Of a stretch of 62,565 nt of DNA, positions 50,133 through 62,565 are shown piece after piece. How positions within the stretch are numbered: position 1 is the first letter of the stretch; each line of letters begins with the position of its first letter. The position numbers were made by a program, and so were the translations under genes. A model generated the notes under the pieces. The model was not told the DNA's origin, made no database searches, and worked only from the letters and a program-made list of their open reading frames with translations. This stretch comes from a bacterium D16-56. GTDB lineage: Bacteria; Bacillota; Clostridia; Lachnospirales; Lachnospiraceae. The stretch covers positions 1 to 62,565 of the forward strand of contig RAYY01000031.1 of assembly GCA_003611875.1 (NCBI GenBank), given 5' to 3'.

Positions 50133-51433
50133 TTAAAGGATAGGAATAATCCCAAACACGATCCCCACAAATATCATAATCACACTGACTGCCCAGTAAA
50201 CCGGAATGCTGAACTTCATATGATCCTTCAGCTCTGTGTTGGTCAAACCAATGGCCAGATAAGTGGCAGGCACCAGGGGACTGACCATTAAAGCCAGATT
50301 CTTCCCGATCACCATAGTCAAAGCTGTGCTCAGGGAAGCGACGCCATAAGTCTCTCCCACCTGCATAACCAACGGCATAATACCATAGAAATAAGCATCC
50401 GTCCCAATGCAGAGTCCGAGCGGCAGCGCCAGGATACCGAAAATAATGTGGATAAAACGCCCAAGGAATCCCGGAATAATGCTCATAATCGTGCCGGCCA
50501 TTTCCGTCAGCATCCCTGTGCCGTCAAAGATGCCGACCATGGCGCCTGCCGCAAACAGGGTGGCAGAAATCATCAGCGCAGCCGGGGCATGCTTTTTGAT
50601 CAGCTTGTCCTGCAGCTTCAAATCCGGATAATTGACCGCCAGTGCCAGGCCCAGCGCCAGCAGAAATGCCACATAGCTGGTTATGTAGCCTACAGACAGG
50701 ATGGCAATCAGCCCGACCGTCAAAAGCAGGTTAAAAACCAAAAGCTTTGGCCTGCGCAGCTCCGCCGCCTCATCCTTTGCCTTCTGGTCAACCTCCATTT
50801 CTTCTCCTTTTCCACTTCCGGCCCCCTTCTTGACAGCAAACATGCCAAGAACAACCGCCAGTGCAAGATTAATCAAAAATCCGACGATCTGAATCGGAAT
50901 CAGAATATGCCACAATTCATTGGCATCCATAGCCAGAACCGTTGCCGCACGAGCCACCGGACCACCCCACGGCAGCAGGTTCATCACTCCCATACAGGCT
51001 CCTGTGAGGCACAGCAGAATCTTGGAGTCAATGTTCATCCGTTTATAAACCGGATACAGAGCCGGAATGGTAATGAGTACTGTTGTCGCCGTGGTGCCGT
51101 CTAAATGGGCGATGGTAGCGATCAGGGCAGTGGCAACCGTAACTGCGATTACGTTGTTCCCTGCCCTATTCACTAAAAATTTACAATGACATCAAACATC
51201 CCCGTATCAGACATGACGCCAAAGTAAATCACAGAAAAAATGAACAGGATTCCGTTGCTGGTGGTAGTGCCGATCCCCTCCTTAATAAATCCGGCCACAT
51301 CCTTCGGATTGTACCCGAGGATTAAGGCAGCCACCGTAGGAATTAGGGCGAGAACTACGATTGGGGACATCTTCCCCTTCAGCAGCAAAACTACGATCAG
51401 TGCGATCATGATAAAACCAACCAGTGCAATCAT
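50133..51433 (-). pseudogene. CitMHS-family citrate-type transporter with a -1 frameshift
   Basis: CitMHS proteins import metal-citrate or related acids. The N-terminal part (51433-51176, 85 residues, starting MIALVGFIMIAL) and the C-terminal part (51173-50133, 346 residues) make a normal ~432-residue transporter if one -1 shift joins them. The family alignment runs straight through the joint (FDVIV-(N/K)-FLVNRAGNNVIAV). Zero frame stops at TAG right after GTA AAT TTT. The A AAU UUU heptamer allows a -1 slip onto TTA GTG. It may be a broken gene, a sequence error in A3T5, or programmed frameshifting. About 12 membrane segments in total. Confidence 0.8.
51125..51182 (-). other. Candidate programmed -1 frameshift signal
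   Basis: In mRNA sense (minus strand): AAATTTT (51182-51176), read A AAT TTT in zero frame, then TAG, then a 9-base spacer and the stem GGGCAG (51166-51161) pairing with CTGCCC (51130-51125). The loop holds a second stem CGTAA/TTACG (51153-51138). Heptamer, spacing and stem all fit a classical -1 signal, but each is short enough to arise by chance. Confidence 0.45.
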
Positions 51434-51538
51434 TTTGTAACCCCTTTCTTTTTTTAATTTTTCATAACCGTTCTCCACACTGAACAATTATGACGATCCC
51501 CTGCACAGGATTCAAAGCACGAATCATTGGATGGTTTT

Positions 51539-54985: not shown

Positions 54986-57767
54986 TCATTGAACATAGGC
55001 ACTAACAAACTGCTGAGAAATTGCACTATACCCACTTGGATCATAATACCTCACCGGATTATTCCCACAGTAGGCATACAGGTTCAACCTATCTCCTTGG
55101 TATACATCCTCCTGCAAAAACCTTCCCAGTATCGGATTATAATACCTTGCCCGAAGATAATACTGCCCCGTTACTCCATCATACTGCTGTCCGGTATAAC
55201 GGATTCTATTAGAAATCCCTTCTTCCTGACATATCCCGTTTCCAAAGGCATCATACTGGTAATGGTTCTGAATCTATCTCCTCTCCCCCTTTCTCATACA
55301 GCAACTCTCCCTGATGGTACACAAACCGAATCCGGTTTGCATTTTCTCTTACTTCATATCGCAATCCTTCTGCATCGTATCGGTTCTCTTGTACCTGACC
55401 GTCTTCCGTCTCTGTTCGTATCTGCTGGTTTTTGCTGTTATAGATAAACCTGCTGACTCCAGACGACCCTTCTCCGCTTATCATGCCTCCCTGCTGGCTG
55501 TATGTAAAGTGGATTCTTTCCTGGGCGCTTTCCTCTGTGACCAGTTGATTTTTCCCGTTATAGGCATAAATCGTCCGTCTGCCATTTTCTTCCTTTTCAA
55601 TCCGGTTTCCACACGCATCATATCCATAGCGGAAAACCACTCCTGCTGGCTCCTCTTCATGGTTTTCCTCTAACAACTGGCCTCGGATATCATATTGATA
55701 CATGGTATGGATGGGGACAGTTTCATCTCCTGCAAGACATTGGATTCCCTTTTTCTCCACACGGTTCCCATTCCCATCATACTGACAAGCCAGAGAGAAC
55801 AGGATTTTTTCATCTGTCTTTGTTTCCAGTACTGCCAGATTTCCGTCCCGGTCATATTCATATCGGGTCCGGATTCCATTTCCATAAAGAATCTTCTCAA
55901 TCCGGTTCTGACAGTCATAACCATATTGGACTTCCAGGCCGTTTCCATTGTAAATCCGGCTTGTCCGGCCTAAAAGGTCATAGCTATAGCAGGTTTTCAC
56001 TCCTGCCGGGTCTGTCATGTAAGTAATGTTTCCTGCTTTGTCATATTCATAGGAAATCAAACGCTTCCCGCTGGATCGCTTCTCCTTCAAATATCCCTGC
56101 CCATTGTATTCATACTCATAAGAATGGCCATTCCCCACCGCCTGGACTAACCGACCCATACTGTCATACCGGAAAGTAGTCAGGCAGGGATTTTCTCCGT
56201 TTTTATCCGCTGCTTTCTCATATACTGGTTCTCCAAATATATTATAAAGGCGATAAATCTGGTTCCCTTCCCGATCTGTGTATAATTGCAGATTTCCTTC
56301 CTCATCATATTGGAAGGTCTCTTTTTCTCCTGCCTGATCAATCCGCTCCCGGACTTTTCCAAAGCTGTTGTAGAGATATTGAACGGTATTCCCATTTCCG
56401 TCAACCGTCTTTTTTACCTGACCGGAGGGAGTGTATTCATAGCCTTCTTTTACCCCGTCAGAGAAATTCACTGAAGTGATTCTTCCCCAACTGTCCATAT
56501 CATAACCAATCTTTTCCCCAACCCCATCTACAATACCGACAATCTGGCCTCTGGCATTGTATTCGTACTGTTGAATCGGATTATGCTGCTGGCTTTGACC
56601 GATGTAGCCTTGGCCTGCAAGGTTTTGACCAGTACGGCCTTGGCCTATATTCTTTTTCTCTCCAGCACTCCTCCCTCTACGCACCTCCCGTACCCGTCCA
56701 TCTAGGGTATATTCCATCTCCTGCCGGGTACCAAGCCCATCTGTCCACCGGATTGGCTCATTCCGAAGGTTATACCCTCTTTCCTCCACCAACTCTCCCA
56801 GCGCATTCGTTTCCCGGATCCGGTTCCCCCTGTTGTCATATTGATAAACCGTCCCCTTTCCACAATCCGTTTCCGCCTCATAACCATATGGCGTAATCTC
56901 CTGAATCAGTTGGTCGTTCCGGTCATACACATACCGGGTCACTGCCCCTCCGGGCGTAATCTTATGGGTCATCCGATCCTTCCGGTCAAATTGATACAGG
57001 GTTTCCAGTTTGTTGGTATCTGCTCCCTTTATGCTCTCTCCGACACAATTTCCTGCCGCATCATAGCCATACTCTGTCCTCTGGTCAATCCCGTTCTTTT
57101 TGTCCAATACCTGCCTTTGTATCATCCGGTCATCTGCATCATAGCGGTAATGGATCTCCGCCCCTTTGGGCATGATTACCTTAATCACATTCCCATTGGC
57201 ATCATATTCATATTTAGTAATGGCAGAACGTATCGGCCCATTCCCCTGGATAGTTTCCTTCTTCTGGATTCTCCAGCCACTCTTATTATATTGATACCGA
57301 ACCTTCCTTCGGATCCCTTCTTCCACCACTTGTTCTTCCAGAGTACGGTTTCCCAGGCAGTCATACTCATACCGGACCTTCGCCCCGAAATCATCCTCCA
57401 CACTGGTCAGGTGGATGGATGCATTCCCGTTCCGGCCCAAATGGATGCAGGTAAGCATCCCCCGGTCCGTCGCCGCACTGGCCGAATCCGGCGTTAGCTG
57501 CAAGGCCGCTCCGTCCACATTGGAAAATGACTTGCAGTCCGGATTTTGCCCATAGCCGCCCCCTGGCTGACCGCCTTCTCCCGCCGCCCTCATCCGGATG
57601 GCATGGCCCCCTATGGCACTCCCTTCATCGCTAGTGGGAAAATAGATATGCACCTGGCTTCCCACCTTCGGCATACAGTAAATAAAGCTGCTCTCTATGG
57701 CATAGACATAATACTTCTGGTTAGGGCAGGCCGCATACTCTGCATCCATATGGAAATGCACCCGCAC
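54986..57767 (-). pseudogene. Displaced VgrG-RHS gene, truncated and frameshifted
   Basis: From 57767 to 55251 an 838-codon frame starts inside a VgrG-like OB domain (SSFIYCMPKVGSQVHIYFPT), passes a short link, and continues through about 25 RHS/YD repeats (for example YDANGNVIKVIMPKGAEIHY). It has no proper start, since upstream VgrG sequence is missing. At about 55262 the frame breaks (+1). The RHS core tip goes on in another frame (QYDAFGNG ... YYLRARYYNPILGRFLQED ... NPVRYYDPSGYS) and stops at 54986 after about 15 residues of tip-specific sequence. RHS proteins form a shell around a C-terminal toxin; here the toxin is lost. Likely not functional. Confidence 0.85.
55025..55274 (-). repeat. 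250-bp RHS-core repeat, copy 1
   Basis: The RHS core tip (from QNHYQYDAFGNG to DPSGYS) is repeated at 58937-59186. By hand alignment I count 16 differences in 250 bases (about 94% identity). Such conserved cores are where RHS toxin tips are exchanged by homologous recombination. Confidence 0.9.
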
Positions 57768-57993
57768 ACAGTTTTAATAACCTTGAATCAACAATTTAAT
57801 AAAATATGCACAATAATATCTTAAAGCACATTAACCAAAACCCTCTTTTTCTGGACTATTTTAATATACTGGTGCCAAACTGACACCAGCTAATATTTTA
57901 TACAATCTATCTACGATTCAAAAAAGAGCTAAATTTTGAAAACACTCTTTTCAATGAAAGATTTTTTAACAACTTTGCCATCATTCTTCATAA

Positions 57994-58509
57994 TTACCAT
58001 GTCCAATATGCAGCACCATTTGCCATAAAAATCCTATTCATAAAAACTCTAAAATCACCTCTTATAAATTTCCATTCATTTATCGGGCGTTCTTCTCTTC
58101 CATCAATAATATATGTATTATTATCTAATTTACTTAAATCAAATAACAATATATTAGAATTAAACATAGTTGTCATAAAAATCAACCAATCCTTTTTCAA
58201 ATCATACCCCATATTTCTCATTTCGTTTGTTAATTCGATAGCATTTTCTATTGATAGTAACTCATATCCTGCATCTTCTATGTTATTATATAGAATAGCT
58301 CCATTTGCTTTTAATAAAAAATCACGATAATCTATAGGTAAATTTAACTTATATGTTTCTGTTATTGCTATTAGATTTTCTATTTTTATTGCTGGTTTCC
58401 ATTCAAATGTATATTTTAAGATATTACCAAGTAAGTCTATACACTCTAATTCCCTCTTTTCTTTTGTCCTATTAAACAATTCTTCTAATGCATTAAATTT
58501 TTTAAACAT
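57994..58509 (-). CDS. SUKH/SMI1-KNR4 family immunity protein
   Basis: The 171 residues carry the SMI1/KNR4 signature (LNLPIDYRDFLLKANGA near residues 52-68) followed by NIEDAGYELLSIENAIE and FDLSKLDNNTYIID. In polymorphic toxin loci such proteins bind and block nuclease toxins. The gene overlaps the end of the HNH toxin frame by 8 bases, so the pair is coupled. It is AT-rich. The 226-base gap downstream (57768-57993) holds a CTGGTG/CACCAG hairpin (57869-57889) and no gene. Confidence 0.85.
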   Translation of the reverse strand: MFKKFNALEELFNRTKEKRELECIDLLGNILKYTFEWKPAIKIENLIAITETYKLNLPIDYRDFLLKANGAILYNNIEDAGYELLSIENAIELTNEMRNMGYDLKKDWLIFMTTMFNSNILLFDLSKLDNNTYIIDGREERPINEWKFIRGDFRVFMNRIFMANGAAYWTW

Positions 58510-59029
58510 TATCTCCTCCGAAAAATCTCCACCATGGATTTAAATACTTTCTATGTATATCTCTTAAAATAGGAGTCAAATTATCAAATGAATTACTTCC
58601 GCCATATTCTTTTGGTTTTATGTGATGTATTTCATATTCTGACCATCCTTTCTCTGGTGTTTCATACCCTTGTTTGTACCACTCATCTATAAAATCTTTT
58701 TTACATAGTATTTCGTCAGGTGTTGTGCGATGCATATCAGCTTCATATTGGCTTCTATACCAATTAACTCGTTCTTCTTCTGGTATTATATTTAAGTCAC
58801 CTTCTGGAAATTCTAATTTTTTTCCTGTTTTGATATCTATTATATCAGGGTATTCAATTTTTTTACTATTTAAATGTTTAGAGTTACTATCTTCTATAGT
58901 TGGATTTGGGCAAACCATAACAGACTGTGGTGTTTTACTATACCCACTCGGATCATAATACCTCACCGGATTATTCCCACAATAGGCATACAGGTTCAAC
59001 CCATCTCCCTGGTATTCATCCTCCTGCAA
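58502..59029 (-). CDS. RHS core tip with HNH nuclease toxin (5' part missing)
   Basis: The frame encodes the RHS core end (NLYAYCGNNPVRYYDPSGYS) followed by a ~130-residue toxin with an HNH/endonuclease VII-like motif: SEYEIHHIKPKEYGGSNSFD, then NLTPILRDIHRKYLNPWW. The nuclease frame is intact and overlaps its immunity gene. Upstream the frame remains open to 59251 and continues RHS core (STAFITNEKRQIQNYYQYDD), but no ATG or GTG is available; 59029 is a TTG. So the tip has been cut from its RHS body or needs a recombined upstream gene. It is a stored or recently acquired toxin cassette. Confidence 0.8.
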   Translation of the reverse strand: MQEDEYQGDGLNLYAYCGNNPVRYYDPSGYSKTPQSVMVCPNPTIEDSNSKHLNSKKIEYPDIIDIKTGKKLEFPEGDLNIIPEEERVNWYRSQYEADMHRTTPDEILCKKDFIDEWYKQGYETPEKGWSEYEIHHIKPKEYGGSNSFDNLTPILRDIHRKYLNPWWRFFGGDNV

Positions 59030-59186
59030 AAATCTTCCCAGTATCGGATTATAATACCTTGACCGAAGATAATACTGCCTCGTTACTCCATCATACTGCT
59101 GTCCGGTATAACGGATTCTATTGGAAATCCCTTCCTCTTGAGATATCCCGTTTCCAAAGTCATCATACTGATAATAGTTCTGGATC
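58937..59186 (-). repeat. 250-bp RHS-core repeat, copy 2
   Basis: This is the partner of 55025-55274, in the same orientation about 3.9 kb away. Recombination between the two would delete the SUKH gene, the HNH tip and the RHS repeats, or swap toxin tips. Confidence 0.9.
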
Positions 59187-59217
59187 TGCCGCTTCTCATT
59201 CGTAATAAAAGCCGTAC

Positions 59218-59376
59218 TTAGCTGTTCTCCGGCAGCTCGTAAAGCGCCGCCTCATCCTCAAAATACCCCTGAAGTTTTAGGATCCCATGCTCCCCCATCT
59301 GATTTTCGATCACACAGAAGCGGATCCCTGTAAGGGGAATCCCTTCCACCCATAAATCATGTAAACTGTACGCCAT
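59218..59376 (-). pseudogene. N-terminal fragment of a third VgrG-like protein (52 residues)
   Basis: Twelve bases after the complete VgrG-like gene, an ATG with GGAGGAAGGGT starts a 52-residue frame (MAYSLHDLWVEGIPLTGIRF ... ALYELPENS). It resembles the N-terminal beginning of the neighbouring VgrG-like proteins. It stops at TAA right where RHS-core sequence begins in the -1 frame. It is the start of a VgrG-RHS gene whose middle has been deleted. Confidence 0.6.
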
Positions 59377-59388
59377 ACCCTTCCTCCG

Positions 59389-60768
59389 TCAGCTATTGCT
59401 CAAAATCCTCCATCCGTCCATTACAATCTTCCCTTCCTCCATGGAAATGCTGTCCTGAAGACCCTGAAGCCGTACCTTGGTTCCAGCCTTCAGCATCACC
59501 TTTCCCCCTGCCTGGATTGCCCCTGTGGACACTGCCCCCAGCCGGATCCCCGTATCGGAACAAACCTCCGCCATCCCGTTGTTCATCAGCTTGACAGACC
59601 CTTTTCCGTCCCTCACTGCCAACAGGATCCCGCCGTCAATGAACTGCACTGTCTTCTGGTCCGGGGTGGTGATGTTCTTCCGGTCCGGGTTCCCCCCGGA
59701 CTGGGAAACCTGCCCTAAGATACTGGAGACAGCATACCCTTCCTTCTCATCCCTTTCCGGGAAAAAGATCCGCACCGAATCCCCTGCCTTGGGCATACAA
59801 TACCATCCGCTTCCGTCCGGCGACGCAGCCACAGTGGAATAGGGGAAATAAAAGGCATCCTGACAGGTTCCCGAAGCGTCCGTCACCATCCTCACCCTTA
59901 CCCGATCCCTCTGCACCCCGGTAACGGTACCAAAAACAGACACCCCTGCCAAAAGCGGGTTGTGGTATTTTTTTATCTCCAGGCCCTCTGCAAAATACAG
60001 GCTGTACTGATTCACCAGCAGCCCGTCCTCAAGGGTTCTCACAATCCCTCCCACAAAAAGCTCCTGCCCTTGGAAAACCACCTTGGATCCCAAAGGAAGG
60101 AGCTCACAGGCATTCACCTGGTACACTGCCTGGGCCTTTCCCGTCCTACCTTTGAAAGCCAGGTTCCGGTATATGAGATACGGCATCCCCTCCCACTCCA
60201 CAGCCATCTCCTCCCCGGAAAGCCCTGCATACAGCCGGATCTGGCCGCTGGCGCTGTCCGTGTACAGGCAGGCTCCATAGTGGGACAAAAACCGCTTTAA
60301 AAACTCCCAGCTGGTTTCCTGGTACTGCATCATGATCTGCCCCACCGGCCCGTCCGGAATGGAAATCAAAAGCTCCACCCCGGGATAAGGCTCCAGCGCT
60401 TTTAAAAGCAGGGCATGAGAGGTCATGGCCATGTCCTGAAAAGAAACATGAAACTTCTTAAAATCCAAAAGCCAACTATTGGTCACAGCCTGGATATGGA
60501 TGAAAAAAAGTCCCCCGTCCCCAGACACCTCCATATGGAGCACAATCCCACAAAACAGACATAACGGCTCCTCCAAAAGAGCATAGAGGAACACATTCCC
60601 CTCTCCTTCATACAAAAGATATTCCTTGGTTTCCTGTTCGGCCACTGCCGTCAGGTCCAAAAACCCATGCTGGTTCATGCCTTCCTGGATCTCCAGGGAA
60701 ATCACCGGCACAGCAATCTCCCCAACCGTCATAACCAGATCCTTATACGTAATGGCTTCTCTCTCCAT
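59389..60768 (-). CDS. VgrG-like spike protein of a contractile-type injection system
   Basis: The 459 residues have a gpD-like N-terminal part (about 1-270), an OB-fold (gp5-like) region with YFPYSTVAASPDGSGWYCMP and DSVRIFFPERDE at about 300-345, and a C-terminal beta-repeat stretch (VMLKAGTKVRLQGLQDSISM). These are features of VgrG and phage baseplate hub proteins; it is shorter than Gram-negative VgrG (about 600-700). Its stop is 12 bases from the next fragment, and it follows the 218-residue gene by one base. In Gram-positive genomes such proteins lie with RHS toxins and PAAR-like proteins; no PAAR-like gene is seen here. Delivery role is inferred. Confidence 0.82.
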   Translation of the reverse strand: MEREAITYKDLVMTVGEIAVPVISLEIQEGMNQHGFLDLTAVAEQETKEYLLYEGEGNVFLYALLEEPLCLFCGIVLHMEVSGDGGLFFIHIQAVTNSWLLDFKKFHVSFQDMAMTSHALLLKALEPYPGVELLISIPDGPVGQIMMQYQETSWEFLKRFLSHYGACLYTDSASGQIRLYAGLSGEEMAVEWEGMPYLIYRNLAFKGRTGKAQAVYQVNACELLPLGSKVVFQGQELFVGGIVRTLEDGLLVNQYSLYFAEGLEIKKYHNPLLAGVSVFGTVTGVQRDRVRVRMVTDASGTCQDAFYFPYSTVAASPDGSGWYCMPKAGDSVRIFFPERDEKEGYAVSSILGQVSQSGGNPDRKNITTPDQKTVQFIDGGILLAVRDGKGSVKLMNNGMAEVCSDTGIRLGAVSTGAIQAGGKVMLKAGTKVRLQGLQDSISMEEGKIVMDGWRILSNS

Positions 60769-60769
60769 C

Positions 60770-61426
60770 TCATTCTCCTCCCCGGTTTCTTTCTTCCATC
60801 ACAAGCAGGACAGCCTCCAACAACACCCCCATCCACTCCCGGTCCTGGTCCATACAGGTAAAGGCGCCGCCCAAAAGCTTCCCCTCCCTCTCCCAGCGGA
60901 ACCCGATGGAATAGGTGCGCCCACTGGCAGTGGGAAGACTGTAATCAAAATATTCCAGGTCCCCCTGTTTCTGACGGTTGAGCAGCCGTGGATACAGATT
61001 CCTTTCCTTCAACACATCCACAGACCCCTGAATCCATTCCTCCATGGGCGGCTGCTCCCCGGTACAGTCACCCAGCGCAAGAATCATAGAGACTGCCCAT
61101 TCCTTGCAGAACCAGAACACACAGTCCTTTTCTTCCCTCTCTGTATCAAAAAAGTCCTCCATCCAGGGAAACCTCCATGCCCCGTAAAGGATTTCTCTCT
61201 CCGTAAAGGAAATAGACAGCCCGTCAAACATAACCTGCCCTTTGCGGATTCCCTCCATCACTTCCTCCCGTGTATATACAGGACTCTCCTTTGTGTCTGG
61301 TGTTTTTGGCGTACTTGATGTTTCTGGCGTTTCTGGTGTTTCCGGCTCAAGCCCTCTTTGTTCTTCCCTTTCTCTTTCCTCCCGCGCCGCCCGGGCAAGC
61401 AGCGCGATAGAACGGTCCATCTCCAT
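60770..61426 (-). CDS. Possible adaptor/chaperone of the VgrG-RHS locus, 218 residues
   Basis: I do not recognise a family with certainty. An acidic, Glu/Arg-rich N terminus leads into a Pro/Thr-rich linker (about 25-50). A domain follows (about 60-218) with SISFTEREILYGAWRFPWM and a closing pattern YSIGFRWEREGKLLGGAFTC followed by a helix (MGVLLEAVLLVM). The order and end of that domain resemble DcrB/EagR (DUF1795)-type chaperones that load RHS toxins on VgrG in Gram-negative bacteria; this is a structural guess. It sits between two VgrG-like genes and ends one base before the next begins. Confidence 0.55.
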   Translation of the reverse strand: MEMDRSIALLARAAREEREREEQRGLEPETPETPETSSTPKTPDTKESPVYTREEVMEGIRKGQVMFDGLSISFTEREILYGAWRFPWMEDFFDTEREEKDCVFWFCKEWAVSMILALGDCTGEQPPMEEWIQGSVDVLKERNLYPRLLNRQKQGDLEYFDYSLPTASGRTYSIGFRWEREGKLLGGAFTCMDQDREWMGVLLEAVLLVMEERNRGGE

Positions 61427-61470
61427 AAAATGCCTCCTCCCTGTTGTTTTTGTACTCTCCTCGCTCTTTA

Positions 61471-62565
61471 CTACTGCAATCGGAACTCCCCACCAGACAC
61501 AATAATATCCTCACTCAATTTAATGCTTGTTTCCTTTTGCTTAATCCTTAAAACATTCTCTGCTGACAAGGTAACATCCTGATCTTCACTTGCCACTGTC
61601 ATCTGGCCTTTGGCACGGATACGGATGTCCTTGTCACTCTCGATCCAGATCCCATGATCATCGGATATCTCTATAAAACTCCCTGCATTGTTTGTAATCA
61701 GAATCCCTTTCGGTGTGAAACGGATTTCTTTGTTATATTTATTCTTGAAAGATTTTTCATCCGGATTCAAGCGGCCGCTTTCTGTGGGTAAATGGACTGC
61801 ACTGATCACATAGGCATTCCTTTCGTCTGGATCCGGGAAATGAAGACGGATCTGATCCCCTTCTTCCGGCATACAATACCATCCTGTGCCATCTTGTGAG
61901 GAATATACGGTTGAGAATGGAAACCAGCGGTAGGAACTGCTTCTATACTCATCCTCCACTAATTCAACAAAAACCATGTCCTTCTTTACTTTCTTCACTG
62001 TCCCCAGCATAGATACCCCTGCTATACGCTCCCCATGCTTTTTATTAGAAAAGCGTTCTTCCTCCAAAACCAAATGATACTCATGCAAAAGCTCCCCCTG
62101 ATGCAAGCGGGACTGTATTCCAAAAATACAAAACGCTCTCCCGCCAACCATCACCTGATCCCCCATACTATGTATTTCCCTGCTTGTAAAGCCTAATGCC
62201 CCAATACTTCTTTCCATGTCCGGAACTAAGCGCTTTTTATATCTCTTATATCGTTCGGACTCTGGCAGCACTATGGTTTCCCTCTTGGGAAATTTTGTAA
62301 AATAACGGGTTCCCATAGTCAGAACCTCCGGTATCAGGAACTCTCCGCTCTTGGCTGCCAAACGTTTTGCAAACTCCCAATCCGTTTCTTTATATTGCAC
62401 GACCAAATCCTTTACTGTCCTGTCAGCTCCCTTGCTGGTCACAACCCCATTCTGGAAATACTCTTTGGTAATCACTTCATACATTTTTTCATAAGTTTTC
62501 TGTTCTTCCTGGAATACCCGTATGTGCTGCCTTTGATCCATCAGATATGTCCCGCTGACCAATTC
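61471..62565 (-). CDS. VgrG-like spike protein, cut by the window edge
   Basis: About 363 residues are visible; the true start lies right of 62565. The visible part begins in a gpD-like region (DLVVQYKETDWEFAKRLAAK), has an OB region with WFPFSTVYSSQDGTGWYCMP and DQIRLHFPDPDERNAYV, and ends in a C-terminal beta repeat (KDIRIRAKGQMTVASEDQDV). It is a paralog of the gene at 59389 and shares the same domain order, with diverged sequence. Presumably the first gene of the locus seen here. Confidence 0.8.
   Translation of the reverse strand, partial: ELVSGTYLMDQRQHIRVFQEEQKTYEKMYEVITKEYFQNGVVTSKGADRTVKDLVVQYKETDWEFAKRLAAKSGEFLIPEVLTMGTRYFTKFPKRETIVLPESERYKRYKKRLVPDMERSIGALGFTSREIHSMGDQVMVGGRAFCIFGIQSRLHQGELLHEYHLVLEEERFSNKKHGERIAGVSMLGTVKKVKKDMVFVELVEDEYRSSSYRWFPFSTVYSSQDGTGWYCMPEEGDQIRLHFPDPDERNAYVISAVHLPTESGRLNPDEKSFKNKYNKEIRFTPKGILITNNAGSFIEISDDHGIWIESDKDIRIRAKGQMTVASEDQDVTLSAENVLRIKQKETSIKLSEDIIVSGGEFRLQ

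Follow-up and report, generated by a model that had tools for sequence, protein, structure and literature searches.

A decayed VgrG-RHS module in a Lachnospiraceae bacterium, and a predicted contractile sheath encoded elsewhere in its genome and in related Gram-positives

Introduction

A run of VgrG and RHS genes at the right end of contig RAYY01000031.1 from the Lachnospiraceae bacterium D16-56 was compared here with described polymorphic toxins and contractile systems; the window under analysis is this entire contig of 62,565 nucleotides (C126 below). Like the polymorphic toxins treated in the available text of PMC3482391, the window combines an RHS core, a variable C-terminal toxin, an immunity gene and displaced tips. 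The trafficking table of that survey places firmicutes among the carriers of toxins of the type VI secretion system (T6SS) type (VgrG/PAAR/Hcp1), and gives as their apparatus a ClpV-like ATPase and phage baseplate proteins. In the available part of PMC8213781, extracellular contractile injection systems (eCIS) are reported from Firmicutes. Firmicutes neighbourhoods pairing the tip family PAAR_H2 (DUF4280) with the spike family Phage_GPD are presented in PMC8651086, the available part of which reports that conserved eCIS or T6SS genes are absent nearby.

The cluster that we describe below shares the tip and spike pairing of these neighbourhoods, in the form in which that part of PMC8651086 presents them, and differs from them in that a sheath recognized by fold, a tube and a possible baseplate occur in a fixed order. 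It differs as well from the apparatus tabulated in PMC3482391, the available text of which does not describe it, and no description was found in the open-access literature searched (subscription papers and preprints were outside its scope). Our analysis makes it quite probable that the spike and toxin genes of the window are a decayed module belonging to a contractile injection machine whose cluster lies on contig C190 of this genome, with a second type of cluster on contig C124.

Results and Discussion

A conserved cluster with a predicted contractile sheath

The first-pass annotation of this DNA had noted the lack of sheath, tube or baseplate genes in the window and suggested a search for contractile genes in the genome and its relatives. 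This search was productive: one conserved cluster unites a sheath by predicted fold, Hcp-like tubes and DUF4280 tips. In the genome (5.54 Mb in 202 contigs), spike-type matches fall on C126, C153 and C190, and also on C124, C151 and C176, while DUF4280 is found on C124, C153, C176 and C190. The PF05954 scores are above the cut-off at four of the eight listed places and below it at the others; those for DUF4280 are above it at all four.

In the direction of transcription, the cluster on C190 opens with a VWA protein, a protein of ~722 amino acids (the sheath), two tube-like proteins and a J-domain protein. These are followed by an FHA protein with a membrane segment, an FHA protein with a Cys-rich start, a PP2C protein with a membrane segment, a PP2C/TPR protein with a membrane segment, an Hsp70-like protein of 856 amino acids and three proteins that we label B431, B237 and B260. 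The run then continues with a 198-amino-acid protein (S198 family), two VgrG proteins, a pentapeptide protein, a member of a family labelled X177, a DUF4280 protein and a VgrG-RHS gene truncated by the contig end. Contig C124 of the same genome carries the second cluster type, beside which no VWA or J-domain gene was seen.

The ~722-residue protein is predicted to adopt the contractile-sheath fold in one chain, its residues ~5-707 aligning to phage, tailocin and eCIS sheaths, with the Streptomyces particle as the best match among contractile injection systems. On this structural prediction the cluster has a contractile sheath protein, and a putative sheath gene that escapes sequence comparison is thus present in this gut bacterium, outside the window, as well as in many of its Gram-positive relatives. 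Pfam, NCBIfam and PHROGs all failed to recognize it, as did an hhalign comparison with one prophage sheath of the same genome. A PDB profile search gave viral NS-1 proteins as best match (E 0.0033 over 38 residues), and AAA_24 gave weak matches to four of the 35 sheath sequences compared (best E 0.0099); both were taken as chance. Sequence comparisons were also unsuccessful for B431, B237 and B260, a failure that carries little weight because the sheath itself was missed in this way. The B431-B237-B260 region is a possible, weakly assigned baseplate candidate.

The tube, in contrast, is recognized at the level of sequence. TssD matches 22 of 29 members at E values up to 3 (best 1.6e-5), and the sole PDB hit is Hcp1 (E 0.025), pointing to an Hcp/gp19-like tube protein; a VgrG-like spike and a PAAR-like tip (DUF4280) are likewise present as judged from family matches. 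A 343-amino-acid protein of a spike and toxin module in Selenomonadaceae (L122:785-1816, from the record of L074) matches the tube hidden Markov model (HMM) at E 1e-20 without matching Pfam TssD, and perhaps consists of a tube domain plus an extra domain. Selenomonadaceae are diderm, so that cells with an outer membrane may be served by the machine as well.

Comparison with T6SS, eCIS and phage tails

Judged by gene content, the machine is not a canonical T6SS, as two tested features fail. Neither TssB (PF05591) nor TssM (IcmF; PF06761) was found in the genome, while the E. coli controls matched; TssC (PF05943) was not searched, and a divergent TssM could escape detection. A T6SS builds its sheath from TssB plus TssC, whereas the cluster encodes a one-chain sheath, carries an Hsp70-like ATPase and a J-domain protein, and occurs in Bacillota.

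The sheath alignment, together with the known occurrence of eCIS in Firmicutes, is what speaks for the cluster being an eCIS or a tailocin, that is, a source of free cytoplasmic particles released by lysis or acting inside the cell, as proposed for Streptomyces. We consider this unlikely. The core list given in the available part of PMC8213781 comprises Phage_T4_gp19, PAAR_motif, Phage_sheath_1, GPW_gp25, Baseplate_J, DUF4255, AAA and DUF4157, and none of these was matched in 20 cluster proteins at E values up to 0.1 and 0.5; as far as that source allows the comparison, Phage_GPD alone is shared and DUF4280 takes the place of PAAR. In contrast to eCIS, including the Streptomyces particle, the cluster has VgrG fused to an RHS toxin as well as FHA, PP2C and VWA genes. 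The membrane segments of the FHA, PP2C and VWA products suit a docked and regulated machine, albeit they do not prove docking.

Phage-like gene runs with PF04984 sheaths are present on contigs C152 and C155 (L019 and L020), and their first open frames are nearly identical. These sheaths were considered as a candidate engine and set aside; they sit in phage-like runs on other contigs. Their existence gives some footing to the view that the cluster itself is a cryptic prophage tail, but they are different loci, and ten C190 proteins compared with PHROGs gave no sheath or tube match. Furthermore, no capsid, terminase or portal family was found among the 20 scanned cluster proteins, and 60 to 63 of the 64 loci examined contain FHA, PP2C and Hsp70-like genes (see below). 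A prophage origin in this sense is scarcely credible.

Conservation and co-occurrence

We scanned a species-genome collection with two peptide patterns and examined the resulting loci with HMMs seeded from C190 (the J-domain HMM from L032) and trained on the same loci. The scan returned 206 candidate stretches, 74 of them encoding a sheath relative, counts that are lower bounds because only two patterns were used. The carriers are mostly Lachnospiraceae and other Clostridia, and include Paenibacillus, Selenomonadaceae, Oscillospiraceae and Defluviitaleaceae; one carrier is the non-pathogenic Lacrimispora algidixylanolytica (locus L055). Among the 64 loci whose sequence extends 9 kb or more downstream from the sheath gene, the tube, FHA2 and PP2C-a were each present in 63, PP2C-b and FHA1 in 62, the Hsp70-like gene in 60, B431 in 54, B237 in 49 and the J-domain gene in 46. 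The lower counts of B260 (17), VgrG (6) and DUF4280 (1) concern genes that mostly lie beyond the examined stretch. Where 4 kb of upstream sequence was available (61 loci), 39 had a VWA gene on the same strand and 5 had one on the opposite strand. Both Paenibacillus loci scanned have a protein kinase gene next to the VWA gene (PF00069, E 1.9e-34 and 3.8e-34).

The conserved cluster thus encodes a sheath fold, Hcp-like tubes, FHA and PP2C proteins and, in most cases, a J-domain protein and an Hsp70-like ATPase; where its downstream end was readable, it also holds spikes (VgrG), a tip (DUF4280) and VgrG-RHS toxins accompanied by immunity genes. The complete genome AP025576.1 illustrates this end: B237, B260, an S198-family protein (214 amino acids), two VgrG genes, a pentapeptide gene, X177 and DUF4280, then a VgrG-RHS gene (2428 amino acids) and an Imm1 immunity gene. 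Both here and on C190, the S198 family is placed between B260 and VgrG. X177 is a steady neighbour of DUF4280 and of the pentapeptide protein; one member (L016:13668-14288, on C153) matches Imm11 (PF07791, E 4.3e-8), an immunity-type fold at a structural-looking position, and the other members scanned gave no Imm11 match.

Among 391 genomes of the class, the sheath occurs in 9 and DUF4280 in 17, and all nine sheath genomes, which belong to three families, have DUF4280 (hypergeometric P 4.5e-14, or 1.0e-12 without the genome under study, with kinship ignored in both). By the listed coordinates the nearest DUF4280 gene is at most 22 kb from the sheath in each of the nine. The tube HMM matched none of the eight DUF4280 genomes lacking the sheath, and both positive controls were recovered. 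DUF4280 was also present in 14 of 14 named genomes picked for carrying the cluster. The sheath is patchy within the genus (6 of 24 genomes, including that of D16-56) and across the whole sample of relatives (7 of 41).

Hsp70-like ATPase and J-domain protein

The J-domain protein matches PF00226 (E 3.3e-23), with the HPD motif in 57 of 58 hits. The presence or absence of an intact phosphate-2 motif in the Hsp70-like protein coincides with that of a J-domain gene at 51 of 58 loci (both in 42, neither in 9) and does not at the other 7. The motif is degenerate in the C124 type, and the nine loci without both are all of this type, their sheaths being 90-98% identical to that of C124; belonging to one lineage, these double absences come closer to a single event than to nine. 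No AAA+ family was matched among the 20 cluster proteins scanned (no genome-wide ClpV search was made), and on that account the Hsp70-like ATPase and the J-domain protein are candidates for sheath turnover. It is a tentative proposal, which we hold to be somewhat less probable than its negation, that the cluster represents a new contractile class widespread in Bacillota, in which these two proteins, with no recycler of the ClpV type, assemble or disassemble a one-chain sheath while FHA/PP2C and the membrane VWA gate firing.

The window module and its decay

The pieces of the window locus are collected in Table 1 in transcription order.

Table 1. Features of the VgrG-RHS locus at the right end of the window, from upstream to downstream
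Feature	Position	Strand	Evidence
VgrG1 spike, 364 amino acids visible	61471..62565	-	PF05954 E 9.7e-7, PF04717 E 2.5e-5; 5' end truncated by contig end; 92% identical to copy at end of C153
218-amino-acid protein, S198 family	60770..61426	-	No Pfam match; 25% identical to C190 198-amino-acid protein, E 1e-15
VgrG2 spike, 459 amino acids	59389..60768	-	PF05954 E 6.5e-6, PF04717 E 6.8e-5; 94% identical to C153 copy
Third VgrG (VgrG3), 52-amino-acid N-terminal stub	59217..59376	-	94% identical to N-terminus of 462-amino-acid C153 VgrG
Displaced RHS C-terminus with HNH nuclease tip	58502..59230 (open frame)	-	PF01844 E 1.2e-4
SUKH-1 immunity protein	57994..58509	-	PF09346 E 1.7e-11
VgrG-RHS remnant, VgrG piece joined to part of RHS core	55251..57767	-	RHS_repeat E 3e-59
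RHS C-terminus continuation in another frame, tip shortened	54987..55273	-	96% identical to RHS C-termini on C153 and C151

All six pieces named by the first-pass annotation exist, and the stub of a third VgrG adds to them. Its assignment of VgrG-like spikes is borne out by the PF05954 and PF04717 matches, some of which fall just under the curated cut-offs of Pfam, and the HNH/SUKH pairing holds as well. The covalent VgrG-RHS fusion that it described is a remnant in the window, an intact-looking fusion of 2479 amino acids being found on C153, and its picture of an intact locus gives way to that of a copy decayed relative to C153. The 218-amino-acid protein is, from gene position alone, a possible loader or adaptor.

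The DNA at 59385-62565 is 93.6% identical to C153. Relative to that contig, ~10.5 kb are absent where the VgrG3 stub now borders on the RHS end with the HNH tip. The missing DNA covers the rest of VgrG3, the pentapeptide, Imm11-like and DUF4280 genes and most of a VgrG-RHS gene. The RHS end left behind shares 86% identity over 111 amino acids with the C-terminal RHS part of the C153 toxin, and its earliest ATG/GTG/TTG start lies at 59029; because the stub is out of frame with this RHS end, a fusion of the two is not to be expected. The VgrG-RHS remnant further downstream matches two separate stretches of the C153 gene: most of its VgrG part and ~3.1 kb of the RHS core of the intact paralogue are gone, the frame is broken near the 3' end and the tip is shortened. 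C126 offers no sequence further to the right: it stops inside VgrG1, and C153 stops at the identical position of that gene, which suggests that the assembly broke within a repeat.

The RHS core, the variable C-terminal toxin, the adjoining immunity gene and the displaced tips (RHS_repeat, HNH and SUKH-1 in Pfam) identify the window toxin genes as RHS polymorphic toxins with predicted toxin activity, and common RHS C-termini bear different tips on C126, C151 and C153. On C151 (L119), two large RHS genes (2344 amino acids with a VgrG part, and 2316) form a row together with several small genes, possibly for immunity.

The assignment of the window to the machine is limited in that its genes are a decayed copy and C126 has no machine cluster to which they could be linked. 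The toxin genes of the window, being interrupted or no longer joined to VgrG, would also fit RHS toxins leaving by another route (e.g. type VII or general secretion), with the VgrG parts as evolutionary leftovers. This explanation is very improbable in view of the intact VgrG-RHS fusions directly behind DUF4280 on C190, on C153 and in AP025576.1 (no search of the genome for other export routes was made). The dN/dS values relative to C153 (0.17 for VgrG1 and 0.18 for VgrG2) point the same way and fit continued use, albeit they also fit time before the decay; the broken RHS piece gives 0.15, and the measure therefore cannot separate the two. The window may still provide VgrG1 and VgrG2 to a machine encoded elsewhere.

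Proposed mechanism and implications

In the machine proposed, the sheath would assemble around the Hcp tube in the cytoplasm, VgrG and DUF4280 would cap the tube, and the toxin would be carried by VgrG-RHS. The VWA, FHA and PP2C proteins with membrane segments may dock the machine and gate it via Ser/Thr phosphorylation. Contraction would push spike and toxin through the wall into a neighbour cell, while SUKH, Imm1 and similar proteins would shield kin.

The sheath detected by fold, its constant arrangement with the tube and the regulators and its linkage to genes for spike and tip amount to a parts list, for which culturable strains exist, and the Hsp70/J pair makes sheath turnover without ClpV directly testable. 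If the proposal is true, RHS toxins may be driven across a thick wall into neighbouring cells by gut Lachnospiraceae and by Paenibacillus, and the machine would escape any survey that relies on Phage_sheath_1, TssB/TssC or AAA+ genes.

Two further observations concern single open frames. In CANQPJ010000032.1 a frame of 1946 amino acids (L067:5305-11145) has the start of a sheath followed by VgrG-RHS, reflecting either an assembly chimera or recombination. On the minus strand of the window, at 50133-51487, adjoining frames of 104 and 346 amino acids resemble, by eye, one transporter gene split in two.

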